Under the pieces are notes generated by a model. It had not been told where the DNA came from, ran no database searches, and worked only from the letters and a program-made list of their open reading frames with translations. From contig CACYQI010000001.1 in the NCBI GenBank assembly GCA_902776455.1, positions 48,434 through 112,433 of the forward strand: 64,000 nucleotides of DNA, read 5' to 3'. A program made the position numbers and the translations under genes. This stretch comes from an uncultured Bacteroidales bacterium. Lineage in GTDB: Bacteria; Bacteroidota; Bacteroidia; Bacteroidales; Bacteroidaceae. Numbering within the stretch: the first letter of the stretch is position 1; the number at the start of each line of letters is the position of its first letter. This document shows positions 6,221 to 39,733 of this stretch, in pieces.

Positions 6221-6286
6221 CTACGTGGAGCATCGGGCTACACTACGTGGAGCGTCAGATGATGCTCCACGTTGAATTTCCACTCT
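6221..6286. repeat. 3 x 22-bp CGTGGAG/CTCCACG array
   Basis: Three contiguous 22-bp units start at 6221, 6243 and 6265. The first two begin CTACGTGGAGC; the third has the opposite polarity, CTCCACGTTGAA. They share the core with arrays near 17410, 30028 and 39589. The remaining sequence to 6598 contains no supported coding region. Confidence 0.8.
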
Positions 6287-6598
6287 CAACTTTCAATTTT
6301 CAACTTCATTCTTTGTTCCGTTTGACAGCACTGTGTGCAGTCCCTATACTTTCTTAACAGCACTCTGAAAAACGCGCCCTTGCAAGTGGCTGGTTATCAG
6401 CGGCGATTAAAAATAAGGCCTTTTCCCGCATTCGGTGGACCAAAGTGCCACAGAAGCGAAAAAAGGCCGTTAGAACGAGGCAAGATGCGAAAAGTTTTGA
6501 CATCTTGCATAGGGCGAGTGGGCGGTTATGGTGCGATTGAAAATCCCGATAATCCATGCGTGCGGAGTACAATTCCACACGAACAGCGGGGGAGGTCC

Positions 6599-8641
6599 TT
6601 ACCGGGCGTTGTGCATGATGCTGTAGCCGGTGAGGCGGTCGAAGCGGGCACCTTGCTGACGATAATAGACGAGGACCTGATACTCGTTCTCGGTCTCGAA
6701 GAAGCTGCCCATGGTGCGCCGTGTCAGACCATCCTGCTGGAGGAACTCGTAGCTGTAGTAGCCTTGTTTGAGCAGGAGGTCGGCATGATACTCCTGTCGC
6801 AGTTCGTCGTACTCCATGCGGCAGTCGGGGTTGAAGGTCTGGCCTGTCCAGTTGCCGCTCACATAGACGTCGCCTCCGTCGAGGCGGGGCGTGGAGAGGA
6901 AGAAGTGGACTACGACGTATTCGGCTGTTGTGGCATCGTCGTAGTCGTCGGCGCTGCGGAGCACGAAGACGCCGTTCTGGTCCTCGACGTAGCTGTAGGC
7001 ATGGTCGATGGTAGCAGGGAAGAGCGTGGCGTGGTAATAGGGTTCGAACCACTCGATGCGGTCCACTCCGGTTGCTGTCCGGTGGACGTCGAGAATCTCG
7101 AAGCGGTGGTACTCGTTACCACCGGGGAAGACGAGCTGTCGGTTGTGCGTGAACTCTATCCCGTTGGGCTTGCGGACGTTAGGCACGAGACCCTCAACTC
7201 GGCTGTCCCATCGGCGGTTCTGCATGACGACGACCTTCAGTTCGCGCTGTGGGTCGAATACCTGCAAGGCGCCGAAGCCTACGGAGAGCGTCATCTGCTG
7301 GTGCTTGTCGTTGAAGTCGATGTCGGTGTTGCTGCTCAGCGATGCCACGATGCCCGTCTCTTTCTCGTAGATGCAGAAGCGTGCTTCGAGTACGGGGTTG
7401 TCCTCCTCGTCCTCTTCGTAGATGCGGACACGGTAGTTGCCGCTCAGGCGGAGTCGAAGCTCGCGGGAGGGCACTCGCAGGCGGTAGTGCGTATAGATCT
7501 GTGTGGTGTTGAAGCTCTTCTCGTAGTCCTCGATGAGCTGGTCGTTGAGTCCTTCGAGGAAGTCGCTCTCGAAGATGCCGTCGGTGGGCTGCCAGTCCCA
7601 GTTGCAATGGTCGATGTGGTAGCGGTAGCGCTTGTAGTCGTGGCTCATCTCGTCCCATTCGATGTCGAGGTGCTGACGGCCTCGGAAGGCCAGATAGGGC
7701 GGCAAGGTGGGGTCGTCGTCGACAGTCAGGGTAAGCGTCCGCACGTTCCGGTCGAAGATTTGCTGCGTCTGAGCGTGAAGAGCAAAAAGCGAAGACTGAA
7801 GAATAAAGACGGCAAAGATGACAGAGCGGAGGATGCTGCTCAAAGACTCTTCCTGTGCAGACTCAGCCTCTTCCATACCTTCCCTTAAAGGGGAGGCTTC
7901 CTTCCCTGAGTTCTCTCCCTTTAAAGGGGAGGACTCCCTCACTTTAGGGGAGGGATGGGAAGGTTCTGTCTCTTCGCCCTTCAGCACAGGCAGTTGCCAA
8001 TGGAACTTGACGGCAAGGATGCGAATCAGTATGACTCCGAAGGCACTCAGCATGGCGCTGATTTCGACGCTCAGCCCCATGTGGAGGCAGACGACGTAGG
8101 CCAGTCCGCCAGCCACGCAGGCAAGGGCGTAGATTTCGCTGCGGAAGATGAGCGGCACGTCGTTCATCAGGACGTCGCGGATGATTCCGCCTCCGGCTCC
8201 AGTCACGGCTCCCATCGTAATCGCCACCCAGAAGGGATGCCCCAGAGCAAGCGTCTTTTCGATGCCGATGACGTTGAAAAGGGCAAGGCCAATGGTGTCG
8301 AAGATGAACCAGGTGTAGTTGTGATGGATGATGTACTTGCCGAACATGCCGACAGCCAGCACGGCCAGGGCGCAACAGACGAAGTAGCTGCTGTTCGTCA
8401 TCCAGAAGGGATTGACGCCAAGCATGAGGTCGCGAATCGTTCCGCCACCGATAGCCGTCGCCATGCCCACAATCCATGCGCCGAAGATGTCGAACTGCTT
8501 CGTCGAGGACAGCCTGACGCCCGAGATGGCAAAGGCAAAGGTGCCGATGAACTCGATGACGACAAACGTGACAGGCAACCGCAACGTGTCGGCCATGTCC
8601 TGCAAAAGGTTATGAATCGAAAAGTCGAAAAGATAAAACAT
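6599..8641 (-). CDS. TRIC-family (UPF0126) membrane protein read in frame into T9SS plug protein (DUF5103)
   Basis: One open frame of 680 residues joins two unrelated proteins. Residues 1 to about 215 form a UPF0126/TRIC cation channel: seven hydrophobic helices and the duplicated motif GGGTIRDLMLG ... GAGGGIIRDVLM. Residues about 223-258 are encoded by a palindromic element (7877-7964). Then come a signal-peptide-like helix (ILRSVIFAVFILQSSLFALHA) and a DUF5103 domain with HCNWDWQPTDG, SFNTTQIYTHYRLRVPS and LSGNYRVRIYEE. DUF5103 is the plug subunit of the type IX secretion translocon in the envelope. Normally these are separate genes. An ATG at 7876, in the same frame, would give a 425-residue secreted plug protein of expected length, so two separate products are plausible. 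The PqqD gene lies 76 bp upstream. Confidence 0.78.
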   Translation of the reverse strand: MFYLFDFSIHNLLQDMADTLRLPVTFVVIEFIGTFAFAISGVRLSSTKQFDIFGAWIVGMATAIGGGTIRDLMLGVNPFWMTNSSYFVCCALAVLAVGMFGKYIIHHNYTWFIFDTIGLALFNVIGIEKTLALGHPFWVAITMGAVTGAGGGIIRDVLMNDVPLIFRSEIYALACVAGGLAYVVCLHMGLSVEISAMLSAFGVILIRILAVKFHWQLPVLKGEETEPSHPSPKVRESSPLKGENSGKEASPLREGMEEAESAQEESLSSILRSVIFAVFILQSSLFALHAQTQQIFDRNVRTLTLTVDDDPTLPPYLAFRGRQHLDIEWDEMSHDYKRYRYHIDHCNWDWQPTDGIFESDFLEGLNDQLIEDYEKSFNTTQIYTHYRLRVPSRELRLRLSGNYRVRIYEEDEEDNPVLEARFCIYEKETGIVASLSSNTDIDFNDKHQQMTLSVGFGALQVFDPQRELKVVVMQNRRWDSRVEGLVPNVRKPNGIEFTHNRQLVFPGGNEYHRFEILDVHRTATGVDRIEWFEPYYHATLFPATIDHAYSYVEDQNGVFVLRSADDYDDATTAEYVVVHFFLSTPRLDGGDVYVSGNWTGQTFNPDCRMEYDELRQEYHADLLLKQGYYSYEFLQQDGLTRRTMGSFFETENEYQVLVYYRQQGARFDRLTGYSIMHNAR
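7877..7964. repeat. Double-hairpin palindromic element at the TRIC/plug junction
   Basis: An 88-bp palindrome (minus strand AACCTTCCCATCCCTCCCC to AAGGGAAGGT) contains two inner hairpins (CCTCCCCTTTAAAGGGAGAG and GCCTCCCCTTTAAGGGAAGG). It supplies the linker between the two domains and lies immediately upstream of the candidate internal ATG at 7876. Confidence 0.8.
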
Positions 8642-8717
8642 ATATTGCTTAAATCAACTTTTGCAAGCTACGCTTCTTTTATCTTCTTATTATCAACACT
8701 TCCGAAACTTGAACCTA

Positions 8718-8987
8718 TCAGCCTTCTGCCAGTCCCACCTTCACCCACTCGTCGAGCAGAGTCTGGGCATCGCGACGGGCTGTGTCGGCATCCACCTCAT
8801 ACTCCTGCATCAGAAGCTCAGCCATCGTCTCGGCCGTGAACTCTTTGTCGCAGATATTCTTCCACAGATAGGTTGCCGACTCGTTGAGGCTGATGACCTT
8901 GTTGAAGTCGATGTTCTCTCTTCCGTAAGCCACGATGATGTGCTCGCCGCACACCTCGCGGAGTTCAAATCCTTTCTTAATCTTCAT
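8718..8987 (-). CDS. PqqD-family peptide-binding protein
   Basis: An 89-residue small protein with the winged-helix fold known as the RiPP recognition element. It opens KIKKGFELREVCGEHIIVAYG, with the central VISLNESATYLW and the C-terminal ARRDAQTLLDEWVKVGL. PqqD proteins bind leader peptides and present them to modifying enzymes. The gene follows an S26-type peptidase and an HprK-like kinase on the same strand, a set seen in peptide-maturation clusters. I found no radical SAM or cyclase enzyme and no precursor peptide nearby, so the substrate is unknown. It starts at ATG 8987. The 128-bp gap upstream is AT-rich with repeated ATTTACTATTTA, plus a palindromic element. Confidence 0.87.
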   Translation of the reverse strand: MKIKKGFELREVCGEHIIVAYGRENIDFNKVISLNESATYLWKNICDKEFTAETMAELLMQEYEVDADTARRDAQTLLDEWVKVGLAEG

Positions 8988-9050
8988 CCTTATAATTTAC
9001 TATTTGACGATTTACTATTTACTATTTATTTACGATTTAACTATTTATAT

Positions 9051-9113
9051 CCCACTTCCCTTTAGGGGAGGGATGGGGAGAGAGGCTAAGGGAGGCCTAA
9101 GGAAGTCTTCCTT
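9051..9113. repeat. Double-hairpin-type palindromic element (intergenic)
   Basis: CCCACTTCCCTTTAGGGGAG, GGATGGGGAGAG and GGAGGCCTAAGGAAGTCTTCC form two adjacent hairpins between the S26-type peptidase and PqqD genes. Composition and motif order match the elements inside the TRIC/plug frame. Confidence 0.6.
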
Positions 9114-9115
9114 TG

Positions 9116-9655
9116 TTATACTATTGCCTTATATATAAATAATAGGTATCTCCTGACGGGTCTGAGCTTGCGCCACAGCTTGATGCGGCGGATGAGCTTA
9201 GGGTCGTCGGCAGGAATGATGCGATGCGGACGGATATACTGCGTGACGAGGCCGCTGACGTCCTGCTGCCTGCAATGTTCCACGCCTCTCACGTTGCCAT
9301 CGCCCTGCAGGACAAGGTTTTCGCCGTGCTTCTCTATGATGCGGTGCAGGACATAGTGCCCCGGTGCTATCTGTGCCAGAACCGCATCGCCTACATCGTA
9401 GCTGTCGCGCTTCTCGAGGAAGACACGGTCGCGTGTGTGCTCGATGAAGGGACGCATGCTGTAGCCCTTGACGTAAATGGCATAGGGCTTGCCTTCGCTC
9501 AGCATCTTCGACACCTCGCCCAGCCAAGCATCGTTAGGCAACTCATGCCGAGGCTGAAGGGAGGTCGTGCCGTTGCGACGCTGATAGCTCTTGCGCCAAG
9601 GCGTCAGCAGGACGCGCGTCGAGCGTTTAACGATTGCTTTCAATAGCCTTTTCAT
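9116..9655 (-). CDS. S24/S26-type peptidase (signal-peptidase-like)
   Basis: A 179-residue protein. After about 45 basic residues it carries the signal-peptidase core: YVKGYSMRPFI with the nucleophile Ser near residue 66, VGDAVLAQI, GHYVLHRI with His near residue 104, and LQGDGNVRG. A His rather than a Lys as the base resembles the ER/archaeal/SipW type. No strong membrane anchor is obvious; the C-terminus is basic and aromatic. ATG 9655 is preferred to the TTG four codons upstream. Between an HprK-like kinase and PqqD, it may cleave a leader peptide; that role is inference. The 64-bp gap to the kinase is filled with TAATCCTTAATC-type simple repeat. Confidence 0.8.
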   Translation of the reverse strand: MKRLLKAIVKRSTRVLLTPWRKSYQRRNGTTSLQPRHELPNDAWLGEVSKMLSEGKPYAIYVKGYSMRPFIEHTRDRVFLEKRDSYDVGDAVLAQIAPGHYVLHRIIEKHGENLVLQGDGNVRGVEHCRQQDVSGLVTQYIRPHRIIPADDPKLIRRIKLWRKLRPVRRYLLFIYKAIV

Positions 9656-9719
9656 CTCCACAACCAATCCCTAATCCCTAATCCTTAATCTTTAATCCTT
9701 AATCTTTAATCCTTATTCT

Positions 9720-10610
9720 CTAATCCTTATCAGCGGCTACCGTGTCATGGCACAAGATGGCAGCCTCGGCATTGGGCAGGCAGCCAAGCTCGTACATGCC
9801 GACGATGCGGATGAGTTCGCCGATGCCATCGCAAACGCCGTTATAGACACGCTCGTCCCACTTCATGTTGCTCATGGCAGGAAGCAGATTGCAGAAAGCT
9901 TCGACGGTACGGAGCTTGCGAATCGTGTTCTCAGGCCGCTGCTGGATGCGGACAATGCCGCCGACAGGAGCCTGAATGTTGCGGTAGCAGCGCGTCTTTC
10001 CGCTCCACGGACTGCCGAAGACGATGGCCTGGCCTTCGATGATGCGTACCACGGGGTTGTCGTCGTTCATAAGGTCGCAACCCGGTATGTTGTCGTACCA
10101 AAGGCGTGTGTGCGTACTCTTGCCCGTTCCGCTGGGAGCAGTCATCAGATAGCCCTTGCCATCGCATCGGATGACCGAAGCATGCATGAGCATCGTCCTC
10201 GTGCAGGCCGCAGCAAAAGCATAAGCCATCATCAAGGCATTGTTCAGCCCATAGTTGCGTTGCACAAAGGTCTTGCCGAAGAGCGACACTTGGCACTGAG
10301 AGAAGTCGGCTTTGCTGCGCATACGGCTGCAGAGCACTCCATCGACATCGTTGACGGCATACTGATAGCCTCCGTCTGCCATGCAATACACGCCGTAGTC
10401 GCATCCGCCACAGTCGAACACGCCTATCTCGTCGCCCTCCTCCTGCCAGTCGAGGCTGTCGTCCACAGTCATCGTGAAAAGCAACGCCTCTTCGGGCTTC
10501 CCCTCCAGCAGGAAGGGAGCAAACGAAGGAATAAGCCTGTCATCGTTGGCCTCGTCGGCAAAGTGAATGGCAAACGCATGGCCGCCAACCTTATAGTAGT
10601 AACTTTTCAT
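9720..10610 (-). CDS. HprK-like P-loop kinase, PqqD-associated
   Basis: A 296-residue protein. The N-terminal half is unassigned beta-rich sequence. The C-terminal half begins LMHASVIRCDGKGYLMTAPS and has a P-loop, SGTGKSTHTRLW, near residues 158-170. It then has NDDNPVVRI and GSPWSGKTRCYRN, the pattern of HPr kinase/PEP carboxykinase-type domains found beside PqqD and in lasso-type peptide clusters. The likely reaction is ATP-dependent phosphorylation of an unknown protein or peptide. ATG 10610 is chosen over the TTG two codons upstream. The gene is 14 bp downstream of a secreted orphan and on the same strand as the peptidase and PqqD genes, so a single transcript is likely. Confidence 0.78.
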   Translation of the reverse strand: MKSYYYKVGGHAFAIHFADEANDDRLIPSFAPFLLEGKPEEALLFTMTVDDSLDWQEEGDEIGVFDCGGCDYGVYCMADGGYQYAVNDVDGVLCSRMRSKADFSQCQVSLFGKTFVQRNYGLNNALMMAYAFAAACTRTMLMHASVIRCDGKGYLMTAPSGTGKSTHTRLWYDNIPGCDLMNDDNPVVRIIEGQAIVFGSPWSGKTRCYRNIQAPVGGIVRIQQRPENTIRKLRTVEAFCNLLPAMSNMKWDERVYNGVCDGIGELIRIVGMYELGCLPNAEAAILCHDTVAADKD

Positions 10611-10624
10611 GTGCAATGTAATGA

Positions 10625-11089: not shown

Positions 11090-11102
11090 ACGGGGGTATC
11101 CT

Positions 11103-11541: not shown

Positions 11542-11566
11542 CACTCTCTTTTACATCTATCAGACT

Positions 11567-17099: not shown

Positions 17100-17409
17100 C
17101 AACTTTTCTTTTGACCCTCCAAATTTTAGGGCACAAAGTTAACTGAAAAGTTCTGCATTTGTCAAAACAATTCGCAACAGCACGCCCGCTACGGCATTAT
17201 TTTGGGCAGTGTGGCACTTTGTAGCCCCAAACGCGAGAAATGGGCTTAAATCGAATGGGCATTGATAATCAAGTCATTACAAAGGAGTATTTTTCGACTC
17301 AATGTTAAGAAGATGTCTGTCCCTCTTGTTGCGCAGCAAAATTCAGCATAGTTTTCGGCCAAAAACGCCACGGAGCGATAGTAGAACCTCCACAGAGGAA
17401 AAGCCAACT

Positions 17410-17475
17410 CTCCACGTTGTGTTGGCCAACTCAACGTGGAGTGTTGAACGACACGGCACGTTAAGATGCTCCGCG
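17410..17475. repeat. 3 x 22-bp CTCCACG/CGTGGAG array
   Basis: Units at 17410, 17432 and 17454 carry CTCCACGTTGTGTTGGCC, AACGTGGAGTGTTGAAC and GGCACGTTAAGATGCTCC at a 22-bp period. The first unit matches the sixth unit of the array at 39589 for 18 consecutive bases. It lies in the 730-bp gap between the transferase and the dockerin protein gene, where I see no coding sequence. Confidence 0.75.
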
Positions 17476-17540
17476 CCCCCTTTTCCAGAGGAATTTACTG
17501 TAAAGTTTTTTTCGCGATATTGTTGTCTGAGGAAAATCAA

Positions 17541-23159: not shown

Positions 23160-24056
23160 ATCTGAAAGTTGAAAATTGAAAGTAGGCAGTTGAAAGTTGA
23201 AAGTAGAAGAGACCCGCTATAACTTCCCTTAGGGGGAGAAGCAAACGCTCGACGAGGTCATATTTAGGGAAGGAAAGAGGGCTGTGTCATAAATATAAAC
23301 AACTATTGCTGCCCGCTAAATAAGTGCCAAAGGCGCGAAAGACCACAGACGGGGGTGACTCCGCCTGCGCCTGAGCGAAGCGAAGAACCCCCGGGATAGG
23401 GTCGCAGAACAATAATAAGCCCCCTTCGACTTCTATACGCTAGAAATGCCGATGAAAAGGTTCTAAAAGGCAGCGGAAGAAATGTTCCCCAGACAGCAAT
23501 AATAAACAACCGTCTGTGACTGAGCGACAGCCGAAGTACCGTCTGTGCATGAACGAAAGCCGGAGTACCGCCTGTGCATGAGGCGGCTGCTGTAGGCTGC
23601 TCTTTCGCCCTTGTATTCCTCCACGGCAGTAATGTCGCACAGCGAGGAGCAAGAGCCAACACTCCATGTTGTTCACTTACTTCCTGCCAGTGGCATCGTC
23701 CGACACAGCACGCCTCAATAATCATCTAACCTCTAACAACCAGTTTCACTTTTCTATTTTGAACGCTCCATTTTCAATTCTCAACTTTCAATTCTCAATT
23801 TTTAACTTTCAATTCTCAACTTTCAATTCTCAACTTTCAATTCTCAACTTTAAAAATTTCTATCGTCACCCGTCACTTTTTGCCCTAACAGAATGAAAAT
23901 AAGCAGGGTAACGGGGTGACAGTACTGTCACCCTACCGTCACCCTCTCGTCACCTCGCATCCTATTGAATCACAACGCAATAAGTGGAAAGGTGACGGGG
24001 TGACAGTGAAAGTTGAAAGTTGGGAGTTGAAAATTGAAAGTTGAAAGATATTGAAA
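23160..24056. repeat. Repeat-rich non-coding stretch
   Basis: No supported gene is present. It holds TTGAAAATTGAAAGTTGA-type simple repeats (23165-23210, 23750-23855, 24005-24055). A CACAGACGGGGGTG motif near 23343 is shared with the large hairpin at 37271. Two 29-bp units (GTCTGTGACTGAGCG, GTCTGTGCATGAACG) plus a partial third lie near 23510-23590. Paired GTGACGGGGTGACAGT words lie near 23910-24010. Confidence 0.65.
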
Positions 24057-28310: not shown

Positions 28311-28390
28311 TGCTCCTAGGCTTTCCTAGGGCCTCCTAGGCTTTCCTAGGGCCTCCTAGGCTTTCCTAGGATTTCCTAGGGTCTCCTAGG
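28311..28390. repeat. 8 x CCTAGG at exact 10-bp spacing
   Basis: Eight CCTAGG palindromes end at 28320, 28330 and so on to 28390. The four intervening bases largely alternate between CTTT and GCCT/GTCT, giving a partial 20-bp higher-order period. The array lies between the GH3 stop codon (28421) and the promoter of the lipoprotein gene. All copies face the same side of the helix. Confidence 0.9.
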
Positions 28391-28420
28391 CTTTCTCCTT
28401 TAGGCGAAGATTCCTTGCAC

Positions 28421-29926
28421 TCAATTGAGCGCAAGGACTTGCTCGATGATGTCGCGGGTGTTTGAGAGGCGCGGCACTTTGTGCTGGCCGCCGAGCTTGC
28501 CTTTCTGCTTGAGCCAGTCGTTGAAGACGCCGGGACGCGCCTTGATGAGTTCGAGCCGCTGGAGTGTGATGTCCTTGTAGCGCTTTGCCTCGTAGTCGGA
28601 GTTGAGCTGCTGGAGGGTCTCGTCGAGGATGCGGGCGAACTCGGAGAGGTCGCTTGGCGCGTGGCTGAACTCCACTACCCACTGGTGACGGCACTTGCCT
28701 TGGTCGTCCATGAAGACGGGCGCAGCTGTGTATTCCAGCACTTCCGCTCCTGTCTGATGGCAGGCTTCGGCCAGTCCTTTCTCTGCGTTATCGACGATGA
28801 GTTCCTCGCCGAAGGCGTTGATGAAGGACTTTGTTCGGCCTGTGATGATGAACTTATAGGGCTTCGTCTGCGTGAACCGTATCATGTCGCCGATGATGTA
28901 TCGCCAAAGGCCGCCTGTGGTGGAGATTACCATCGCATAGTTGCGCCCAGGCTCTACGCCCCAGAGGGGAACGACGCTGGGGTTCTCCTGGTCGAACTCG
29001 TCCATGGGGATGAACTCGTAGAACACGCCATAGTCTATCATCAGGCTCATGGCCGAGTCTGTCGGGTCGGTCTGCAGTCCAAAGAAGCCCTCGGAGGCGT
29101 TGTAGGTCTCTACGTAGTGCATCTTGGGCGAAGTGATAAGCCGCTGATACTGTTTGCGATAGGGAGTAAAGGCGACGCCGCCGTGGAAGAATACTTCCAG
29201 ATTGGGCCAGACGTCGTTGAGGTGCTGCTTGCCGCTGAGTTCCATCACTCGGTTCAGCACGGAGAGCATCCAGGAGGGTACGCCGCTCAGGTTCGTGACG
29301 TCCTTCGTCATAGCTTCGCGGGCTATGCGGTCGCGCTTTATCTCGAAGTCGCTGAGCAGGGCTGTTGACTTCTTGGGCACGCGCACTAGGTTGACGATAG
29401 GGTTGATGTTCTCGATGAGGATGGCGCTGAGGTCGCCGACGAGGCTGTGCGGCAGGTTGTAGTTGGGGGAGTGACTGCCGCCGAGAATCAAAGCTCTGCC
29501 GTCGAAGAAGCGGCTCTTCGGGTTGTCGCGCAGGTAGCAGGCCACGGAATCCGTGCCGCCAGCATAGTGCGTGTCAACGAGGCAGTCGTTGCTCACCGGG
29601 ATGAACTTGCTCTTGTCGTTGGTGGTGCCGCTCGACTTCGCGTACCATTTCACGCTGCCCGGCCAAAGGATATCCTTCTCGCCGTGCCTCATGCGGTCGA
29701 TGTAGCCCTTCAGTTCCTCGTAGGTATTGAGGGGAGTCTGGCGGACGAAGCCGTCGTAGTCGAGCGTTTTGCCATAGGCATGAGCCACGCCCCATTCCGT
29801 CTGGGAAGCCTTGTCAAGCAGATGCTTTAGTACCTTTCGCTGCATGGCCTCTGGTTCCGTTGCATAGCGTTCCAATCTCTTGCAGCGGGAAGTAAGAAGC
29901 GGACTGATAAGCTTAGTTAGCGACAT
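28421..29926 (-). CDS. GH3-family acyl-adenylate-type protein
   Basis: About 501 residues of the GH3 family, members of the adenylating superfamily. In plants GH3 enzymes conjugate amino acids to hormones; bacterial substrates are unknown. Signatures are VKWYAKSSGTTNDKSKFIPV (ATP-binding P-loop-like segment), the central ETYNASEGFFGLQ, and TGRTKSFINAFGEELI in the C-terminal region. The length fits the family. The 221-bp gap to rnc is occupied by a 22-bp tandem array. The exact first base is accurate to about one nucleotide. Confidence 0.85.
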   Translation of the reverse strand: MSLTKLISPLLTSRCKRLERYATEPEAMQRKVLKHLLDKASQTEWGVAHAYGKTLDYDGFVRQTPLNTYEELKGYIDRMRHGEKDILWPGSVKWYAKSSGTTNDKSKFIPVSNDCLVDTHYAGGTDSVACYLRDNPKSRFFDGRALILGGSHSPNYNLPHSLVGDLSAILIENINPIVNLVRVPKKSTALLSDFEIKRDRIAREAMTKDVTNLSGVPSWMLSVLNRVMELSGKQHLNDVWPNLEVFFHGGVAFTPYRKQYQRLITSPKMHYVETYNASEGFFGLQTDPTDSAMSLMIDYGVFYEFIPMDEFDQENPSVVPLWGVEPGRNYAMVISTTGGLWRYIIGDMIRFTQTKPYKFIITGRTKSFINAFGEELIVDNAEKGLAEACHQTGAEVLEYTAAPVFMDDQGKCRHQWVVEFSHAPSDLSEFARILDETLQQLNSDYEAKRYKDITLQRLELIKARPGVFNDWLKQKGKLGGQHKVPRLSNTRDIIEQVLALN

Positions 29927-30027: not shown

Positions 30028-30115
30028 CCGATGCTCCGTGGAGTGTAAGCCGATACTCCGTGGAGCGTAAGCCGATGCTCCGTGGAGTGTGAAGCGATGC
30101 TCCGTGGAGTGTAAA
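30028..30115. repeat. 4 x 22-bp CTCCGTGGAG array
   Basis: Units at 30028, 30050, 30072 and 30094 follow the pattern CCGATGCTCCGTGGAGTG plus four variable bases, with exact 22-bp spacing. It lies between rnc and the GH3 gene. Confidence 0.88.
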
Positions 30116-30147: not shown

Positions 30148-30918
30148 CTACTTGACTGCTCCCGACAGCTCGTCGTGCAGGCGTCGGTCGTGCTTGAGCC
30201 GGTGCAGCACATTACGGCTTGCCTTCTGATGGCTCTCCTTTTTGGAGTAGCCTTTGCCGCGGCCGCATTCTATGCCATTGATGACTACCTTCGAGTTGAA
30301 AAGCGGCGACCCGTCGTCGCCCTTTGTCTCGTCCAGCAGGACATACTCGAGCCTGGCCTTGTGCTTCTGGCACCACTCCAGCAGCTTGCTCTTGAAGTTG
30401 ACCTCCTGATAGGCCAGCTTGTCGATGTCGATGAGGCCGCGCATTATCTTCTTCGTAATGAAGTCCTTGCAATGTCCGTAGCCCCTGTCGAGGTAGATGG
30501 CGCCAACGAGAGCTTCGAAGGCATTGCCCGCAAGGTAGCTGTTGTGCGTCTGGTTGTGCTCGTTGCGGATGAGGAGCTTGTCAAGCCCTATCTCGGTGGC
30601 CAACTTGCCGAGCGATTCGCGCTGCACTATCTTGCTGCGCGTGTTGGTCAGGAAGCCCTCGCGCTTGCGGGGGAAGTGGTGATAGACTATCTCGCCCACC
30701 ACGGCGTCGAGTATGGCATCGCCCAGGAACTCCAGGCGCTCGTTGTTGAGGGGCGTTCCCTCCTTGGCATGAGCCAGCATCGACTTGTGCATCAGCGCCT
30801 CCTGGTAGAGGCTTATCCTGTGCGGATAGAAGCCCAGCATATTACGAAAAGCGCGATAAAGTCCCTTGTCCTTGCGGAAAGGAAGCCTTATCGCGTCTAT
30901 AAGGTTAGTGGCAAACAC
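30148..30918 (-). CDS. rnc: Ribonuclease III
   Basis: 256 residues. The endonuclease domain carries the NNERLEFLGDAILDAVVGE signature with its metal-binding Glu and Asp, and downstream AGNAFEALVGAIYLDRG. The C-terminal double-stranded RNA-binding domain contains INGIECGRGKGYSKKESHQK. It processes rRNA precursors and other duplex RNAs. A GTG start at 30918 lies 4 bp after the fabF stop, so translation is likely coupled. The order acpP-fabF-rnc is conserved in Bacteroidales. Confidence 0.95.
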   Translation of the reverse strand: MFATNLIDAIRLPFRKDKGLYRAFRNMLGFYPHRISLYQEALMHKSMLAHAKEGTPLNNERLEFLGDAILDAVVGEIVYHHFPRKREGFLTNTRSKIVQRESLGKLATEIGLDKLLIRNEHNQTHNSYLAGNAFEALVGAIYLDRGYGHCKDFITKKIMRGLIDIDKLAYQEVNFKSKLLEWCQKHKARLEYVLLDETKGDDGSPLFNSKVVINGIECGRGKGYSKKESHQKASRNVLHRLKHDRRLHDELSGAVK

Positions 30919-32940: not shown

Positions 32941-33240
32941 GAACTATCCTCTTGCTCCTTGCCCCCTGCCCCTTTCTTATCATTCCTCATGCACCTTGCT
33001 CCTTGCCCCTTGCCCCTTAGAAACTATTCCTCTTGCCCCTTGCTCCTTGCCCCCTGCCCCTTTCCTATCATTCCTCTTGCACCTTGCTCCTTGCCCCCTG
33101 CTCCTTTCTTATCATTCCTCTTGCCCCTTGCTCCTTGCCCCTTGCTCCTTTCTTATCATTCCTCTTGCCCCTTGCTCCTTGCCCCTTGCTCCTTTCTTAT
33201 CATTCCTCTTGCCCCCTGCTCCTTGCCCCTTGCTCCTTTC
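32941..33240. repeat. 44-bp tandem repeat array (about 7 units)
   Basis: Units anchored on TTTCTTATCATTCCTCTTGC start at 32973, 33061, 33105, 33149 and 33193. A variant unit is at 33017 and a degenerate one lies before 32973. Spacing is exactly 44 bp. The filler is CCCCTTGCTCCTTG-like, giving strong pyrimidine bias on this strand. Because 44 is not a multiple of three, all three plus frames stay open; this is not a gene. The array lies upstream of priA. The rest of 32700-33374 shows only promoter-like sequence near the end. Confidence 0.9.
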
Positions 33241-33366: not shown

Positions 33367-33374
33367 TACCCAAG

Positions 33375-35657
33375 ATGTCACAATACGCAGATGTCATATT
33401 GCCGCTACCGCTTCAGGGAGCCTTCACCTACGCCTTGCCGGACGAATTCGCCACGCGGACGCAGGTGGGATGCCGTGTCATAGTGCCTTTCGGAGTACGC
33501 AAGTTCTACACGGCTATCGTGGTGCGTCTGCACAACGAAAAGCCGCCCTACCCCACCAAAGACGTTTCGGAGCTGCTCGACGACGCGCCTGCCGTCCTGC
33601 CCGGCCAGTTGCGTCTGTGGAAATGGGTCAGCGAGTACTACCTCTGCTCCTTGGGCGAAGTGTTCAAGGCGGCACTTCCTTCCGGCCTCAAGCTTGAGAG
33701 CGAGAGCGTTGTCCTGCTGAATGCCGACTGGGATGCGACGTTGCCTCTCACGACGGGCGAAGAGAAGGTGTGGCAGGCACTTCAGCCCAAGAAGAAGGGC
33801 AAAGCATCGGGGCAGTCGCTGGCAAACTTGCAGAAAGCCACCGGCTTGAAGGGGATTCTTCCTGTCGTGAAGAGTCTTTTGGAGAAAGGAGCCGTGCAGA
33901 TGAAGGAGGAGTTGCGACGTAGCCGCAAGCCAAGAACAGCGAAGTCTCAAGCAAACACACAGCCCATTTCCGGCCCCCTCCCCCAAGAAGGAGGGGAGTC
34001 TCGCCGCGAAAGCCCCTCCTCCTCGGGGGAGAGGAAGGGGGAGGGGGCTTTGACCGAAGCCCAGCAGCAGGCCATGGACGGCATCGTTGGCCAATGGAAG
34101 AAGCATGGCGTCTGCCTGCTCCACGGCGTGACGAGCAGCGGAAAGACGGAAATCTACATTCAGCTCATCAAGAAAGCCATCGGGGAAGGGAAGCAAGTGC
34201 TCTACATGCTGCCCGAGATTGTACTGACCACCCAGCTTACCGAGCGGCTGCGACGCGTCTTCGGCGAGCGTTTGGGAGTCTATCACTCGCGCTATCCCGA
34301 CCGAGACCGCGTGGAGCTTTACCAGAAGATGCTCTCCGATGCGCCCTACGACATAGTGGTGGGAGTGCGAAGTAGCATCTTTCTTCCCTTCCAAAGGCTG
34401 GGCTTGCTCATCATCGACGAAGAGCACGAGACGTCGTTCAAGCAGCAAGACCCTGCCCCTCGCTACCATGCCCGCAACGCCGCCCTCGTGCTGGCAGCAC
34501 AGGCCGGAGCGAAGGCTTTGCTGGGTTCTGCCACGCCGAGTCTGGAGTCGTACTACAACGCCCTGAGCGGCAAGTACGGGCTTGTCACGCTGAAGACCCG
34601 CTATGCCGGGCTGAGCCTGCCCGACATCGAGGTGGTCGATGTGCAGGAGATGCAGCGGAAGAAGATGATGTCGGGCGTGTTCTCGCCGCAGTTGCTTGCC
34701 CACATACGCAAAGCCTTGGAGCAACACCAGCAGGTCATCCTCTTCCAGAACCGCAGAGGCTATGCGCCCGTACTGGAGTGCCGCGAATGCGGATGGACGC
34801 CGCGTTGCCAGAGCTGCGACGTCAGCCTGACCGTCCACCGCGGCTTCCGACAGCTGGTCTGCCATTATTGCGGCAAGACCTACGACATCCCTTCCGTCTG
34901 TCCCAACTGCCAAGGCCGCGAACTGTCCAGCCGAGGCTACGGGACGGAGCGCATCGAGGAGCAGCTCGGCCGACTGATACCCGAGGCCCGCATCAGCCGC
35001 ATGGACCTCGACACGACGCGTTCCCGACAGAACTACGAACAGATACTGCACGACTTCGAAGAGGGGCGGACCGACATCCTCATCGGCACGCAAATGGTGA
35101 CGAAGGGCCTCGACTTCGACCGTGTCAGCCTTGTCGGCATCCTTTCTGCCGACACGATGCTCTCGCAGCCCGACTTCCGCAGCTACGAGCGAGCGTTCCA
35201 ACTCATGGAGCAGGTGGCGGGCAGAGCCGGAAGAAAAGGCTCCACGGGGCACGTCGTACTGCAGACACGCGACGCGGGGAATGGCATCGTCGGACAAGTG
35301 GTGAGGCACGACTACGAAGGCATGTACGCCCAGCAAGCCCAGGAGCGTGAGCTGTTCCGCTTCCCTCCCTACTGCCGCATCGTCTCCATCTACCTCAAAC
35401 ACCGCGACGAGAAGGTGGCCGAAAGCCTCTCCAACGACTTCGCCGCCCTGCTTCGGCAGGTGTTCGGCGAGCGCGTGCTGGGACCGGACACGCCGCCCAT
35501 AGCCTTCGTCCAGCTCATGCACATTCGCAAACTGATGCTGAAGCTGGAACTTACCCTCCCCCTCTCTGCCGTCCGCCAGCGTCTCGTCGCCCTTCAGGAG
35601 CAAATCCTCAGCATGCCGGCCTACCGCTCAGCACAGATGTACTACGACGTCGATTGA
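33375..35657 (+). CDS. priA: Primosomal helicase PriA
   Basis: 760 residues. It restarts stalled replication forks. Order: N-terminal 3'-DNA-binding domain (VILPLPLQGAFTYALPDEF), winged helix, a linker, helicase lobe 1 with Walker A GVTSSGKTEIY and box IIDEEHE, a zinc region with eight Cys (CRECGWTPRCQSC and CHYCGKTYDIPSVCPNC), and lobe 2 with VAGRAGRKG. Residues about 200-225, exactly between winged helix and lobe 1, are encoded by a palindromic element (33973-34048), giving a Gly/Ser/Glu-rich loop. The helicase then resumes with LTEAQQQAMDGI. The frame is intact. Confidence 0.95.
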   Translation: MSQYADVILPLPLQGAFTYALPDEFATRTQVGCRVIVPFGVRKFYTAIVVRLHNEKPPYPTKDVSELLDDAPAVLPGQLRLWKWVSEYYLCSLGEVFKAALPSGLKLESESVVLLNADWDATLPLTTGEEKVWQALQPKKKGKASGQSLANLQKATGLKGILPVVKSLLEKGAVQMKEELRRSRKPRTAKSQANTQPISGPLPQEGGESRRESPSSSGERKGEGALTEAQQQAMDGIVGQWKKHGVCLLHGVTSSGKTEIYIQLIKKAIGEGKQVLYMLPEIVLTTQLTERLRRVFGERLGVYHSRYPDRDRVELYQKMLSDAPYDIVVGVRSSIFLPFQRLGLLIIDEEHETSFKQQDPAPRYHARNAALVLAAQAGAKALLGSATPSLESYYNALSGKYGLVTLKTRYAGLSLPDIEVVDVQEMQRKKMMSGVFSPQLLAHIRKALEQHQQVILFQNRRGYAPVLECRECGWTPRCQSCDVSLTVHRGFRQLVCHYCGKTYDIPSVCPNCQGRELSSRGYGTERIEEQLGRLIPEARISRMDLDTTRSRQNYEQILHDFEEGRTDILIGTQMVTKGLDFDRVSLVGILSADTMLSQPDFRSYERAFQLMEQVAGRAGRKGSTGHVVLQTRDAGNGIVGQVVRHDYEGMYAQQAQERELFRFPPYCRIVSIYLKHRDEKVAESLSNDFAALLRQVFGERVLGPDTPPIAFVQLMHIRKLMLKLELTLPLSAVRQRLVALQEQILSMPAYRSAQMYYDVD
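33973..34048. repeat. Double-hairpin palindromic element inside priA
   Basis: A 76-bp palindrome (GCCCCCTCCCCC ... GGGGGAGGGGGC). Its two inner hairpins (CCAAGAAGG-type and CCTCCTCCTCGGGGGAGAGG) are separated by the conserved centre GTCTCGCCGCGAAAGCC. It occupies the linker region only. The same centre (TTTCGCGGCAGAAA) is in the copies at 37104 and 37499. Confidence 0.85.
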
Positions 35658-35710
35658 GGTCCGGAGTCCCTCGCCCAAGCCTCCCTTCCGGACACAACGT
35701 GGAGCGTCGC

Positions 35711-35776
35711 CAGTACTACCGTGGAGAAACTCCAGTACTACCACGGGAAAACTCCAGTACTACCACGGTGGTACTG
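35711..35776. repeat. 3 x 22-bp array (CAGTACTACCACGG)
   Basis: Units at 35711, 35733 and 35755 begin CAGTACTACC at an exact 22-bp period. They are preceded by a CAACGTGGAGCG word, and the last unit folds as CAGTACTACCACGGTGGTACTG. It lies between priA and the OmpA-family gene. Confidence 0.85.
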
Positions 35777-35880
35777 GGAGCAAGGCACGGAGCTTCGCCA
35801 CGAGCACGATGCCGTTTGCCTCGCAGAAACGCAGAAAGTGGGCACAAAAAGGCTTTCTCGGAATGTTTTTAGGAATAATG

Positions 35881-35912
35881 TTTGGAAGATTTATTAAAAA
35901 GTGTTACTTTTG
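35881..35912 (+). promoter_or_regulatory. Bacteroidota-type promoter of the OmpA-family gene
   Basis: TTTG at 35881-35884 and TACTTTTG at 35905-35912 are separated by 20 nt, an exact match to the TTTG-N19-21-TAnnTTTG consensus. The ATG is 35 nt downstream. Confidence 0.8.
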
Positions 35913-35947
35913 CGTCACAATAGGAACAAAAACTAACATTATTCAGT

Positions 35948-37075
35948 ATGAACAGATTCAAAAACCTTTGTGCCGTCGGCCTGCTGATGTTGGGCATGAC
36001 CGTGACGGCAAGTGCGCAGGAAAGCGAAAAGACGCTCACTTATCCTCAACTCTTCTTCGGACTGCAAGGCGGCGCACAGACCACCTTCACCGACTTTGAC
36101 AACATGAAGCTGATTACGCCTACGGCAAGCTTCAGCTTCGGCTCGTTCTTCACGCCCGTCATCGGAGCCAGGCTCCACTTCAACGGACTTTGGAACAAAG
36201 GCGGCTACAAGGACGACGAGGAAAGCTTCAAGTACAAATACAAGTACCTGACCTCCGACCTCGACCTGCTTGTCAATCTCGTCACACTCTTCGGCAAGAA
36301 GAACTACTACCCCCTGAACGTGTATCTCATCGGAGGCATCGGACTGAACTACGCCTGGGATAATGACGACGCATACCGACGCATCGACAAGCTCCCGATG
36401 GCATACGACAGCGGCAAACTCAGCCACAACGCCCGCGTCGGAGTACAGCTCGACTACAACATCTCGAAGCACGTCAGCATCAACCTCGAAGTGGCTGCCA
36501 ACAGCCTGAAGGACCGCTACAACAGCAAGATGTCGGGCAAAGACGACTGGCAGCTCACGGCACAGCTCGGCGTTGCCTACAAGTTTGCAGCCAAGAAAGC
36601 CAAGAAGGTGGTCGAGGAAGAAGTGTGGGAGACACGCATCGACACCATTTGGTACGACGACGCCGTGTTCACTCCGAAGGTAGAGAACGGCACGGCCACG
36701 TGGACGGTGTTCTACAAGATACGCGAAAGCGACTTCGAAGCCGACGAACAGCTCAAGCTCATCGGAGACTTCCTGAAGGACCATCGCGAATGCAAGGTTG
36801 ACATCAAGTCCTACGCCGACGTGCAGACGGGCAACCCGAAGATTAACATGGAGTACTCGAAGCAACGTTGCGAGAAGGCCGTGAAGGCGCTGACCGATGC
36901 CGGCGTGCCTGCTTCGTCCATCACTTCGGCATACTTCGGCGACACCGTCCAGCCGTTTGCCGAGAACGACAAGAACCGTGTCAGCATCATCGTTGCAACC
37001 GGCCTGAAGGACATCAACGAGAAGGGCATGGTGAAGAAATACAAGACGAAGGAAGTACGCTACCGCGTAAAGTAA
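35948..37075 (+). CDS. OmpA-family outer-membrane protein
   Basis: 375 residues. A signal peptide (FKNLCAVGLLMLGMTVTASA-Q) is followed by a beta-barrel of alternating hydrophobic strands and a C-terminal OmpA/MotB peptidoglycan-binding domain. In the latter, DIKSYADVQTGNPKINMEYS, CEKAVKALTDAGVPASSI and the final ENDKNRVSIIVA are diagnostic. It links the outer membrane to the cell wall. It has its own consensus promoter. The sequence beyond the stop codon enters a palindromic element. Confidence 0.92.
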   Translation: MNRFKNLCAVGLLMLGMTVTASAQESEKTLTYPQLFFGLQGGAQTTFTDFDNMKLITPTASFSFGSFFTPVIGARLHFNGLWNKGGYKDDEESFKYKYKYLTSDLDLLVNLVTLFGKKNYYPLNVYLIGGIGLNYAWDNDDAYRRIDKLPMAYDSGKLSHNARVGVQLDYNISKHVSINLEVAANSLKDRYNSKMSGKDDWQLTAQLGVAYKFAAKKAKKVVEEEVWETRIDTIWYDDAVFTPKVENGTATWTVFYKIRESDFEADEQLKLIGDFLKDHRECKVDIKSYADVQTGNPKINMEYSKQRCEKAVKALTDAGVPASSITSAYFGDTVQPFAENDKNRVSIIVATGLKDINEKGMVKKYKTKEVRYRVK

Positions 37076-37103
37076 AAGAAACACCTTTTCCCATCCACTC
37101 CCC

Positions 37104-37188
37104 AGCCCCCTCCCCCATCCCCTCCCCCGAGGAGGAGGGGAGTTTCGCGGCAGAAAACCTCCCTCATCAAGGGGAGGTTAAAGGGAGC
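37104..37188. repeat. Double-hairpin palindromic element downstream of ompA-like gene
   Basis: AGCCCCCTCCCCCATCCCC ... GGTTAAAGGGAGC, with inner hairpins around CCTCCCCCGAGGAGGAGGGG and CCTCCCTCATCAAGGGGAGG and the centre AGTTTCGCGGCAGAAAA. It may double as a terminator. Confidence 0.8.
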
Positions 37189-37270
37189 ACCTCTGCTTTT
37201 GCTCCTTTTATTCGGCTTTCCTGACGAAAAGCAGCTCATGGGGATTAATCTTAAGTCTCAAAGAGACAAA

Positions 37271-37446
37271 AGACCACAGACGGGGGTGCAAGCCCCCGAT
37301 AGAAGTGCAACAACAAAAGAAGCCCCGAGGGGGCGACAGAGATAGATGCAAGTTGAAATTAAACAAGTTAGATATTCTGTCGCCCCTTCAGGGTTTTTGT
37401 TTTGTTGATGCTCCTCTACCGGGGGCTTACACCCCCGTCTGTGTTC
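37271..37446. repeat. Large inverted repeat, about 75-bp arms
   Basis: The arm at 37271-37345 (AGACCACAGACGGGGGTGCA...) is closely complementary to 37372-37446 (...TTACACCCCCGTCTGTG), with small gaps. The loop of about 26 bp is AT-rich (AAGTTGAAATTAAACAAG). The inner parts pair AGCCCCGAGGGGGCGACAGA with TCTGTCGCCCCTTCAGGGTT. It encodes no protein and resembles a MITE or structured RNA. The outer sequence CACAGACGGGGGTG also occurs near 23343. Confidence 0.75.
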
Positions 37447-37498
37447 TTTCGCACCTCCGGTGCTTTCCCCCGGACAACAATAATTAAGAAACTACAAT

Positions 37499-37620
37499 CC
37501 CCACCCCCTACCCCTACCCTGCGAAGGGAGGGGAAAGGGACGCTAAGGCTTTCACAAAGCTTCGCGGCAGAAAGCCTCCCTCCTCGGAGCGTAGGCCGAT
37601 GCTCCGCGAAGGAGGGGACT
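37499..37620. repeat. Double-hairpin element with an embedded 22-mer
   Basis: TCCCCACCCCCTACCCCTAC ... GGAGGGGACT with the centre TTCGCGGCAGAAAGCC. The second hairpin, CCTCCCTCCT ... GAAGGAGGGG, has CGGAGCGTAGGCCGATGCTCCG (37585-37606, exactly 22 bp) in its loop. That is the sequence of the separate 22-bp repeat family. Confidence 0.75.
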
Positions 37621-37655
37621 TTTTTCAACTTTCAATTTTCAACTTTCAATTTATT

Positions 37656-39173
37656 TTACTGATGCATGGGCCTCAGCAAGTCGTTGACGGTCTTGACAGG
37701 GTTGAAAGTCGAGAGAGGCACCTCGACCATGATGGTGCTCCAGTCGCTCATGGCGCCGTTCCAAAGACCGGGCAACTCCAAGGCCTTCAGTTCCTTGCCG
37801 TCCTTGCTCTTGTAGGAGATGAAGCCTGTGGCAGGGTCAACGAAGTCGGGCAAATGGAACTTCGTGCCCTTGTAGCCGCGGACGGCGCAGACAAGGTCAA
37901 CGGGATTGAAGTGCGTCCCCTCGGTGAACATCTTCATGTAGGCTGCATTGTTCTTGTCGATCTGACTGCTTTCGAGTATCTGCAGCGAGACGCTTCCGTC
38001 GGGATTGTAGGCGAGGAAGGGACCTCCACCCGGCTCGCCGACATTCTTCACCACGCCGCAGACGCGGATGGGGCGGTCGAGCTTCTTTCTCAGGAAGATA
38101 GTGAGGTCGGCATCCTCCATTTCCTTCAGGCCGGGCATGTCGCAGCCGAGCGTGTGACGCACGAAGCGGATGATTTCCTCCAGGTCGGCATGATTGTACT
38201 TGCCGCTGTCGAGCAGACGCAAATAGGCGAACACTTGCTTCTGAGCCTGCACGAGGACTCCGGCTATGACCTGCTTCCAAAGGACGGTATCGGCCTTGAG
38301 GCGGTCGGGCACCACATTATCTATATTCTTAATGAAGACTATGTCGCTCCCGAGGTCGTCGAGGTTCTCGATGAGCGCACCATGCCCGCCCGGACGGAAG
38401 AGGAGTTTGCCGTCGGCCGTACGGAAAGGCGTGTTGTCCATGTTCACCGCAATGGTGTCGGTGCTGGGCTTCTGTTCGCTCAGGCTCACCTTGAAGGTTA
38501 TCTTGTACTTCGCCTCGACTTCTGGCACGACGCGACTGATGAGTTCCTCGAAGAGTTCGCGGTGCTCGCTGCTGACCGTAAAGTGGACCGATGCTTCTCC
38601 TCTGCTGCTGGCATAGAGAGCGGCTTCGGTGAGGTGCTCTTCGACCGGCGTCTTGGCGCAATCGTCGTACGTATGGAACTGCAAGAGGCCCTTCGGCAAC
38701 CGCCCGTAGTTCAAGCCCTCTTCGCCCAGCATGTTAGCCACAACAGCCTTATAATCACCCTCTTCGACGAGCGCGTCCACGCCTTTGCCCTCGTTCAGGA
38801 AGCAGGCGTCGTTCAGCGCGTCGAAGAAAGCGAAGCTGTGGATGTGGGCGAAGAACGTCTTCTCGAAGTCGGTGGTGGGAACCTCATAGTCGGCATCGAG
38901 GAACTCGAACATATTCTTGAACATACGGCTTGCGGCTCCGCTGGCAGGCACAAACTTCGTGATGTCGTGCCCCTCGGCTTTGTAGTCGTTCCAAGCCTGT
39001 ACGTAAGCCTCCGCCTCTTCCTCCGTCGGCGCCATGATACCGCCGCCAATGGATGCTGCACCCTGAAGCTTCAAGTAGTCAAAACCCTTGCGGAAACTCT
39101 CCAACTGCGCTTCTATCTGCGCCTCGCTGATGCCCTTTTGCTGCATCTGCTCAATGTCTTCTTTGCTGAACAT
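37656..39173 (-). CDS. DUF4301 family protein (sugar-nucleotidyltransferase-like)
   Basis: 505 residues of a family found in Bacteroidota. Recognisable features: KFVPASGAASRMFKNMFEFL near residue 95, LLFRPGGHGALIENLDDLGS in the middle, VFIKNIDNVVPDRLK, and GGGPFLAYNPDGSVSLQILE near the end. The GAASR and GGHGALIENL segments recall nucleotide-sugar pyrophosphorylases such as UDPGP enzymes, so a nucleotidyl-transfer role on a sugar is possible but unproven. It is a single gene, starting with ATG 39173. A simple-repeat tract follows the promoter region. Confidence 0.85.
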   Translation of the reverse strand: MFSKEDIEQMQQKGISEAQIEAQLESFRKGFDYLKLQGAASIGGGIMAPTEEEAEAYVQAWNDYKAEGHDITKFVPASGAASRMFKNMFEFLDADYEVPTTDFEKTFFAHIHSFAFFDALNDACFLNEGKGVDALVEEGDYKAVVANMLGEEGLNYGRLPKGLLQFHTYDDCAKTPVEEHLTEAALYASSRGEASVHFTVSSEHRELFEELISRVVPEVEAKYKITFKVSLSEQKPSTDTIAVNMDNTPFRTADGKLLFRPGGHGALIENLDDLGSDIVFIKNIDNVVPDRLKADTVLWKQVIAGVLVQAQKQVFAYLRLLDSGKYNHADLEEIIRFVRHTLGCDMPGLKEMEDADLTIFLRKKLDRPIRVCGVVKNVGEPGGGPFLAYNPDGSVSLQILESSQIDKNNAAYMKMFTEGTHFNPVDLVCAVRGYKGTKFHLPDFVDPATGFISYKSKDGKELKALELPGLWNGAMSDWSTIMVEVPLSTFNPVKTVNDLLRPMHQ

Positions 39174-39588
39174 ATCGTTTATTTTTAATTAATTATCATA
39201 AGATTAAGGATTAAGGATTAAAGATTAAAGATTGGTTGTTTCGGTGCAACCATCACTATCAGCCTTAATCCGTAGTCTTTAATCAATCTTTCATCTTCAA
39301 CTTATATACATCACCTTTTCAACTTTTGACTTTCCATTCTCAACTTTCAACTTTCAGCTTTCTCGTCCACAAAGTTACGAAAAAAGTTAATACGAAAGAA
39401 GTTCCGTGCTTAAAAAAATGAATTTTTGTGCAGAAGAACCAAAGAAAACTGAAGAATGGCACAAGGGAAGGACGCGAGAGAACGCATCGTGACGGACGAA
39501 ATATCTTGACATTCCTTTTCAAGGAACAGGCTTCGTTCGGCGACGAAGAACAGAGCGGGACGTCGCAAAGGCAGAAGTCGGCCCAAAC

Positions 39589-39733
39589 ACTCCGTGGAGC
39601 ATCGGCTCACACTCCACGTTGAATCGGCTCACACTCCACGTTGAATCGGCCGACACTCCACGTTGAATCGGCCGACACTCCACGTTGAATCGGCCGACAC
39701 TCCACGTTGTGTTGGCCGACAAAACACGTTAAA
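39589..39733. repeat. 6-7 x 22-bp CTCCACGTTGAA array
   Basis: Units start at 39589, 39611, 39633, 39655, 39677 and 39699, with a decayed seventh at 39721. Units 2-5 are ACTCCACGTTGAATCGG plus five bases; unit 1 has CTCCGTGGAGC and unit 6 CTCCACGTTGTGTTGG. The array lies in the 1-kb divergent gap before the polysaccharide locus. I see no gene in 39174-40207; 39200-39370 is simple repeat. Confidence 0.92.

Follow-up and report, generated by a model that had tools for sequence, protein, structure and literature searches.

Short tandem arrays of a 22 bp unit with a CTCCACG/CGTGGAG core recur between the genes of a 64,000-nucleotide stretch of DNA from an uncultured Bacteroidales bacterium (the window: bases 48434-112433 of contig 1, C1, in an assembly of 3.39 Mb and 94 contigs). 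In the samples read from this genome, G000, and from compared genomes (the other G numbers, congeners and outgroups; C stands for contig and L for sequence stretch), the arrays have a pitch of 22 bp, an excess of dyad symmetry and an intergenic location. Their sequence words are species-specific, and the same gap between orthologous genes, or slot, holds arrays of unlike words in different species. The CTCCACG core is itself incidental, since it is species-specific while the 22 bp pitch holds in many congeners.

The reading tentatively preferred here is that these are fixed-pitch arrays of predicted protein-binding sites, acting at the level of DNA as boundaries between genes, with words that turn over by lineage. 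The arrays would be dyad-symmetric sites working as double-stranded DNA. Each unit has a core of roughly 10 bp that resembles a palindrome and in many cases is centred on CACG; its spacer contains a second dyad, so that half-sites alternate every 11 bp. A dimeric DNA-binding protein would most likely sit on successive units along one side of the helix, and the bound array would act as a boundary that separates adjacent genes or transcription units, for instance as a transcription roadblock, as an insulator or as a site that organises the chromosome. The words are particular to each lineage, and the arrays at a given slot would be rewritten in, or replaced by, the words current in that lineage. 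The binding protein, the boundary function and the co-evolution of words and protein are inferences.

A preliminary description of the window had listed five arrays, placed them between genes and noted words recurring in both orientations, all of which is borne out; the cores are spaced at exactly 22 bp in each array. It had also proposed a genome-wide search for the core and named random spacing as the result that would count against a strict period. In that search CTCCACGTTG was found 377 times, compared with 4 for the reversed control, and CTCCACGTTG-N12-CTCCACG 220 times, compared with 0. Of the genome, 730 kb were read, a non-random sample comprising nearly all of C1 and C2 and several later stretches picked for hits. 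Neighbouring cores 70 bp or less apart are at exactly 22 bp in 186 of 201 cases and at 44 bp in 6, so that random spacing is rejected. Among the 435 CTCCACG/CGTGGAG sites of this sample there are 76 arrays, whose unit number ranges from 2 to 8 and is 3 or 4 in 48 cases. This density extrapolates to approximately 350 arrays per genome, from a sample partly picked for hits. Within the window, CTCCACG occurs 34 times where 7.1 are expected, and this number was reached in none of 100 shuffles. A chance origin is rejected on these core counts, which are far above those of reversed controls and shuffles. By the simple codon-score gene calls made for this analysis, 43 of 45 arrays in G000 and 30 of 31 placed congener arrays are intergenic, and the five arrays listed for the window are all outside gene calls.

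The same arrays are present on two other contigs, one from an uncultured Prevotellaceae metagenome-assembled genome (MAG) and one from a sheep-rumen Bacteroidaceae MAG. These origins, together with the presence of the type 9 secretion plug domain and DUF4301 among the proteins, suggest that the genus belongs to the Bacteroidales. Pairs of CTCCACGTTG at 22 bp were also seen on two contigs of a planctomycete MAG of 69% GC (L043 2307-2338, L046 3940-3971), where they adjoin a CACCCGCTGATAGCGGGTG-like hairpin and have different spacer words.

Pitch and symmetry across the genus

The pattern CTCCACGTTG-N12-CTCCACG was found in none of 60 relatives, of which 36 are congeners. A looser pattern has 835 matches in G000, counting both strands of what is a near-palindrome, and at most 7 in any one of 40 congeners. 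The pitch is distributed differently. In a blind sample, made up of the first bases of contig 1 from 20 congeners, period 22 accounts for 10 arrays, spread over 7 genomes, and all the other periods between 12 and 45 (44 omitted) account for 4 together. When further congener stretches are added, most of them picked for having hits, the arrays outside G000 number 34 of period 22 and 8 of other periods. These counts exclude arrays that have a shorter period within them (7, 14 and 21 bp TTTCAAC repeats and similar), and the congener assemblies are mostly incomplete (61-92%, a few above). The length of the unit hardly ever departs from 22, whereas its sequence changes from species to species, often even at one and the same chromosomal place, which points to spacing and symmetry as more important than exact sequence.

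In twenty short outgroup stretches (272 kb) no array of period 22 was seen, and period 23 is represented by two arrays, each of them in G054, which belongs to another family of the order (L122 8230-8283 and 9639-9751); some of their units have an ACAA-GT-TTGT core. Another 60 kb from three outgroups were free of arrays, and an additional 40 kb of G054 added none of 22 or 23 bp.

The units of the CTCCACG/CGTGGAG family (F1; other 22 bp unit families are F2, F3, F4 and F5) consist of a 10 bp core and a 12 bp spacer centred on GGCC-like letters. The core is CTCC-AC-GTTG in 62 and CTCC-AC-GGAG in 44 of 120 F1 units, reverse complements included, and half words such as CATCGG, YGTAAG, YGTAGG and some others recur. 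Taken over 62 arrays, the best circular dyad covers a mean of 14.1 of the 22 positions, compared with 11.4 in shuffled units.

When 127 arrays from 20 genomes were clustered by unit sequence, a greedy method gave 43 clusters, and single linkage gave 32 with a limit of 5 mismatches, 27 with 6 and 20 with 7; shuffled units fall within 7 mismatches in just 3 of 2000 pairs. Judged by their sequences, some families look connected by intermediates and others do not. CACG is present in 10 of the 27 clusters formed at 6 mismatches, where 4.1 are expected (p = 0.005), with p values of 0.0002 to 0.03 at 5 and 7 mismatches. The corresponding count of 20 of the 43 greedy clusters, against 6.8 expected, is overstated because these clusters split F1. 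Examples of cores are GGC-AC-GCC in G020, TTAAC-AC-GTTAA in G008 and G005, GCCGC-AC-GCGG in G065, G027 and G079, and GGTTAACC in G024 and G012. Two or more of the 43 clusters are held by 13 of the 20 genomes. The clusters are patchily shared between species, one F3 cluster being found in G000, G020 and G027 and one TTAACACG-type cluster in seven genomes.

Orthologous gaps, strains and a dispersed element

The orthologous gaps of ten relatives, 18 in number, were compared in two regions, both chosen since G000 has arrays there, and units with 8 or more mismatches were regarded as unlike. A rerun without G000 agrees. With G000 left out, 40 species pairs share a slot, where length-weighted placement predicts 19.0 (sd 4.8; P = 0.0005); in 33 of these 40 the units are unlike. 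The gaps contain 22 arrays of period 22 and 1 array summed over ten other periods, from 17 to 27. Ten of the 18 gaps are free of arrays in every species; these are mostly short, the longest being 258 bp.

In the gap before gene C2:66446, which by its length and place is presumably groES, arrays were detected in 9 of 11 species and fall into five groups of unlike units: F4/F5 (G000, G005, G035 and G080), GCCGCACGC (G027 and G079), and G008, G013 and G012, each alone. Other shared slots are C2:61792-62998 (5 of 10 species), C2:74253-75707 (5 of 9) and the divergent acpP-priA gap (4 of 11), and 22 bp arrays of other words were detected 3' of priA in G020, G027 and G012. Arrays seen by eye lie outside these detector counts; they are in G036 before C2:66446, in G035 and G012 at C2:74253-75707, and in G008 and G036 3' of priA. 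Shared slots with like units are partly a matter of inheritance, since the species are related, and those with unlike units are not so easily explained in this way.

Changes of words are also seen between strains. An 11.3 kb block of G065 (C26, L107/L108, 19786-31060) is 96% identical to G000 and brings its F1 array along, while other blocks of G065, which is regarded as a relative on identity, are mostly 73-87% identical and G065 has GCCGCACGCGG arrays of its own. From the sequence, the block is an apparent recent horizontal exchange between congeners, or else a chimeric contig. Its F1 array has 5 units in both genomes and differs at 10 of 110 positions, while of 150 positions on either side 1 differs upstream and 5 differ downstream. 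In a second comparison, of L109 (JAFXZK010000060) with C7 of G000, there are again 5 and 5 units, with 8 of 99 positions different against 3 of 200 upstream; this comparison has one flank only, as the 3' sequences are unrelated, with 75 of 100 positions different, and the contig may be chimeric. Multi-letter word changes (CAA/CTC, GACA/GATG, CGTCGC/CGCAGG and CGCAGG/GAAAGC) account for 13 of the 18 differences; the other 5 are single letters, and in four of them the same T/C change is seen. At both loci, therefore, the words differ at constant unit number. This looks like exchange of words and not growth, although two loci are few. The preliminary description had suggested modular growth in place of simple slippage; the arrays do go beyond simple slippage, and it is growth that finds no counterpart at these two loci.

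Minisatellites are common in bacteria, and the arrays, being short and head-to-tail, could be thought to be minisatellites formed by plain slippage under no other constraint. One period across differing sequences, the dyad excess and strain differences that are mostly word changes, with unit numbers constant at the two loci compared, leave this explanation with little probability.

Some F1 arrays sit inside a dispersed repeat, Type A, of about 420 bp between GAAAAnnnTTGACA end motifs that are both in direct orientation (10 aligned copies). A Type A piece from G020 has at least 41 matches in G000 (40 of 80 candidates were scored, and some matches may be parts of a single copy). In G020 it has 3, the query among them, and in the ten other genomes searched none. 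Homologous copies carry GGCACGC-type units in G020 where G000 has CTCCACG. Fragments of a known mobile element had been named in the preliminary description as a possible origin of the arrays; the Type A repeat carries some of them only, and no tie to a known mobile element was found. A different dispersed repeat, roughly 100-250 bp long, has some tens of matches (L303, L304 and other places in G000 that match L109:1200-1358), several of which are at contig ends.

The array at window position 30034, between rnc and a glycoside hydrolase family 3 (GH3) gene, is missing in the ten nearest relatives, save for an AT-rich match in G080. For this locus, 29 congener rnc loci were fetched and 28 read downstream (L194 was dropped, its flank being cut). 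By eye, a 22 bp pair seems to be present downstream of rnc in G084.

Gains and dispersal of this kind are what would be expected if the arrays were selfish, REP-like palindromic repeats without host function, mobilised into tolerated intergenic places, expanded in tandem and homogenised by conversion. The species would then differ because each amplified a different member of a shared library, an idea proposed for eukaryotic satellite DNA. This is the chief rival and a serious possibility. The copy number of Type A in G000 as against G020, the gain at rnc-GH3, the patchy sharing of unit clusters and the transfer of an array within the G065 block all fit it. By itself it leaves unexplained why the unit has the same length in 20 or more clusters; slots are, besides, shared beyond length-weighted chance, and Type A, found in 2 of 12 genomes searched, cannot be the general carrier.

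Searches for a maker or reader, and tests of RNA function

The Y1/RAYT transposase domain (PF01797), associated with REP elements, was not detected in seven array-bearing congeners (G005, G008, G012, G015, G016, G020 and G024; genomes 62-92% complete), which also speaks against selfish spread. G000 has three hits that are short and partial, at 21.8-25.9 bits, of which two just pass the cut-off of 23, and there are clear hits in the array-bearing G013, G022 and G027 and in most outgroups. The arrays resemble REP elements in being palindromic, extragenic and of high copy number. However, GTAG and CGTC, counted anywhere in the unit and not by end position, are present in 4 and 6 of 43 cluster units, compared with 6.5 and 6.9 in shuffles. 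A REP/RAYT system is disfavoured, given no excess of either motif and no Y1 gene in the seven congeners. Among 461 predicted proteins, about a fifth of the genome, there is no abundant transposase or paralogous family, the largest family having 4 members.

Serine recombinase sites, in which the central dinucleotide would be fixed while the arms vary, were also considered. The unit centre is AC/GT in 12 of 43 cluster representatives, compared with 11% in shuffles (p = 0.002, with F1 split over several representatives). The resolvase domain (PF00239) was found in only 1 of 15 array-bearing genomes, G012, and not in G000. As far as the incomplete assemblies allow, this refutes the explanation for most genomes tested and reduces its probability almost to nothing.

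The arrays might alternatively be RNA elements, tandem hairpins at the 3' ends of mRNAs that stabilise or terminate transcripts. Averaged over both strands, the mean folding z is -3.4 for 18 CTCCACG arrays of G000, -5.9 for 10 other G000 arrays and -4.5 for 34 congener arrays, and by a hand count 14 of 19 congener arrays in tandem gaps are nearer the stop than the start. Better average folding than shuffles is to be expected of dyad-rich sequence, and several arrays (some of those of G024, G012, G015 and F1) fold no better than shuffles. In G000 the same hand count gives 11 of 22. On the coding strand of 41 tandem-gap arrays, arm mismatches are G-T in 85 cases and A-C in 107, with more G-T in 14 arrays and more A-C in 18 (sign test p = 0.60); G-T is no commoner than A-C, and the pairing therefore does not look selected in RNA. 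There is also no association, in either direction, between the arrays and intrinsic terminators (Fisher p = 0.48 and 0.56), so terminators are disfavoured as the reason for their position. With the commonest F1 core not self-complementary in addition, an RNA function is improbable, and the repeat class apparently acts as DNA.

Several of these results tell against protein-bound boundary arrays too. No candidate binder was found among the 461 proteins. The 62 of 120 F1 cores that are CAACGTGGAG/CTCCACGTTG are not self-complementary, many arrays fold more stably than shuffles, and without a terminator link a role in termination has no direct support. Gap types show no clear bias in G000 (13 convergent, 22 tandem and 8 divergent among 43 arrays), and in tandem gaps 11 of 22 arrays are nearer the stop in G000 and 14 of 19 in congeners. 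Some of the change in sequence may have come about gradually, since 73 of the 127 arrays chain into one cluster at 7 mismatches. The sharing of slots could reflect few tolerated places, because many gaps are short, and the array at rnc-GH3 is a gain of the G000 lineage.

The boundary reading can be extended to a genus-wide system of constant pitch and symmetry, with a reader protein of ever-changing specificity and arrays rewritten in place in each lineage, a possibility that is less likely than not. It would make the arrays a bacterial counterpart of fast-evolving pairs of satellites and their binders, with the 22 bp set by the geometry of the bound protein.

Arrays of the window and related repeat systems

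The repeats of the window are listed in Table 1. The preliminary description had the right number of units for the arrays at 6221, 30034 and 39590 (3, 4, and 6 with a degenerate core); those at 17366 and 35695 have 4 units each and not 3, and the degenerate pair at 37580 was absent from its list. In the 17366 array the first two cores are degenerate and the last two mutually inverted, and Type A fragments at 17150-17317 and 17395-17516 adjoin it. The 30034 array is placed between rnc (30148-30918, minus strand) and the GH3 gene (28421-29845, minus strand), with a possible flanking AGGGCGA/TCGCCCT pair, read off an alignment. The 35695 array is directly 3' of priA, and its last three cores are variant words.

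Table 1. Arrays of 22 bp units and the Type A element in the window
Feature	Position	Strand	Details
F2 array	487..570		22 bp unit TTTATCACGGGTGAGAAATCAA; similar dyad architecture, different words
Type A element carrying the 6221 array	6026..6568	+	C1:54459-55001; profile match, 543 bp
F1 array, 3 cores	6221..6274		CTACGTGGAG, CTACGTGGAG, CTCCACGTTG; starts 6221, 6243, 6265
F1 array, 4 cores	17366..17441		Starts 17366, 17388, 17410, 17432
F1 array, 4 cores	30034..30109		CTCCGTGGAG; starts 30034, 30056, 30078, 30100
F1 then F4 words, 4 cores	35695..35770		CCAGTACTACCACGG; starts 35695, 35717, 35739, 35761
Degenerate F1 pair	37580..37611		C1:86013; CTCCTCGGAG, CTCCGCGAAG; starts 37580, 37602
F1 array, 6 cores	39590..39731	+	Divergent gap; starts 39590, 39612, 39634, 39656, 39678, 39700; degenerate core near 39722
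F2 array	55504..55590		22 bp unit TTTATCACGGGTGAGAAATCAA
All core spacings are 22 bp.

Other repeats are present in the window. A tandem array of period 44 (CTTGCTCCTTGCCCC...) lies at 32951-33240 in the acpP-priA gap, where four relatives hold 22 bp arrays. TTTCAAC/TTGAAAG arrays of 7, 14 and 21 bp at 6277-6306, 23163-23208, 37622-37652, 58516-58592 and elsewhere match many congeners and also occur within Type A elements. A 10/20 bp palindromic array, TCCTAGGCTTTCCTAGGGC, is found at 28313-28395, in the gap before the GH3 gene, with similar matches in G027. The region 43900-54700 is a block of genes with weak coding scores, possibly foreign in composition. In an Rfam search of the window at gathering thresholds, three tRNAs were the only matches.

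It is normally by sequence that repeats are recognised. In these arrays length, symmetry and place are conserved while sequence is exchanged, so that a search by sequence reveals roughly one species at a time. Should a protein read the arrays, the genus offers many natural unit families in which to study how binder and site change together, and the arrays would be a new way for bacteria to separate neighbouring transcription units. If they are selfish, they form an unusually length-constrained class of repeat, for which no transposase was found in this analysis.

In eukaryotes, the tandem TTF-I sites 3' of the mouse rRNA genes are roadblock terminators whose protein is known. The mode proposed here would be analogous to that of the TTF-I roadblocks, in that protein sites would delimit transcription units. 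Roadblocks are the subject of a review (PMC10310618).

In the open-access PMC literature there is, among the matches listed, no description of such arrays. The nearest described thing found is BrickBuilt of Porphyromonas gingivalis, a minisatellite borne by a miniature inverted-repeat transposable element (MITE), with a unit of 23 nt, a single family at 19 loci, IS5-type terminal inverted repeats and unit numbers that differ between strains (PMC4596501). The likenesses to that account are the order Bacteroidales, dispersed intergenic arrays of a short fixed unit, their location inside a larger element (a leader and tail in BrickBuilt) and predicted folding into stems. In contrast, G000 has 76 F1 arrays in 730 kb, many 22 bp clusters exist across the genus, other sequence is found at shared slots, and the end motifs of Type A, as read from the alignment, are direct and not inverted. 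The unit is 22 and not 23 bp, 23 bp arrays having been met only in the outgroup G054; the 23 of G054 and of P. gingivalis suggests that other pitches exist in the order. As for unit number between strains, the only two loci compared here have 5 and 5 units. The same source mentions 22 nt tandem direct repeats in P. gingivalis W83 (PMC4596501), which share the period and the bacterial order, a likeness that rests on description and not on sequences.

By form, REP elements are the nearest kind. REP elements and BIMEs are short palindromic extragenic repeats of high copy number, often species-specific and often near gene ends (PMC3733652), all of which is also true of the arrays. The differences from REP elements, BIMEs and REPINs are the lack of GTAG or CGTC excess, the lack of Y1 genes in seven congeners and the strict head-to-tail pitch of 22 bp. 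As described in these sources, neither BrickBuilt nor REP elements cover a constant unit length combined with exchanged sequence at shared places.

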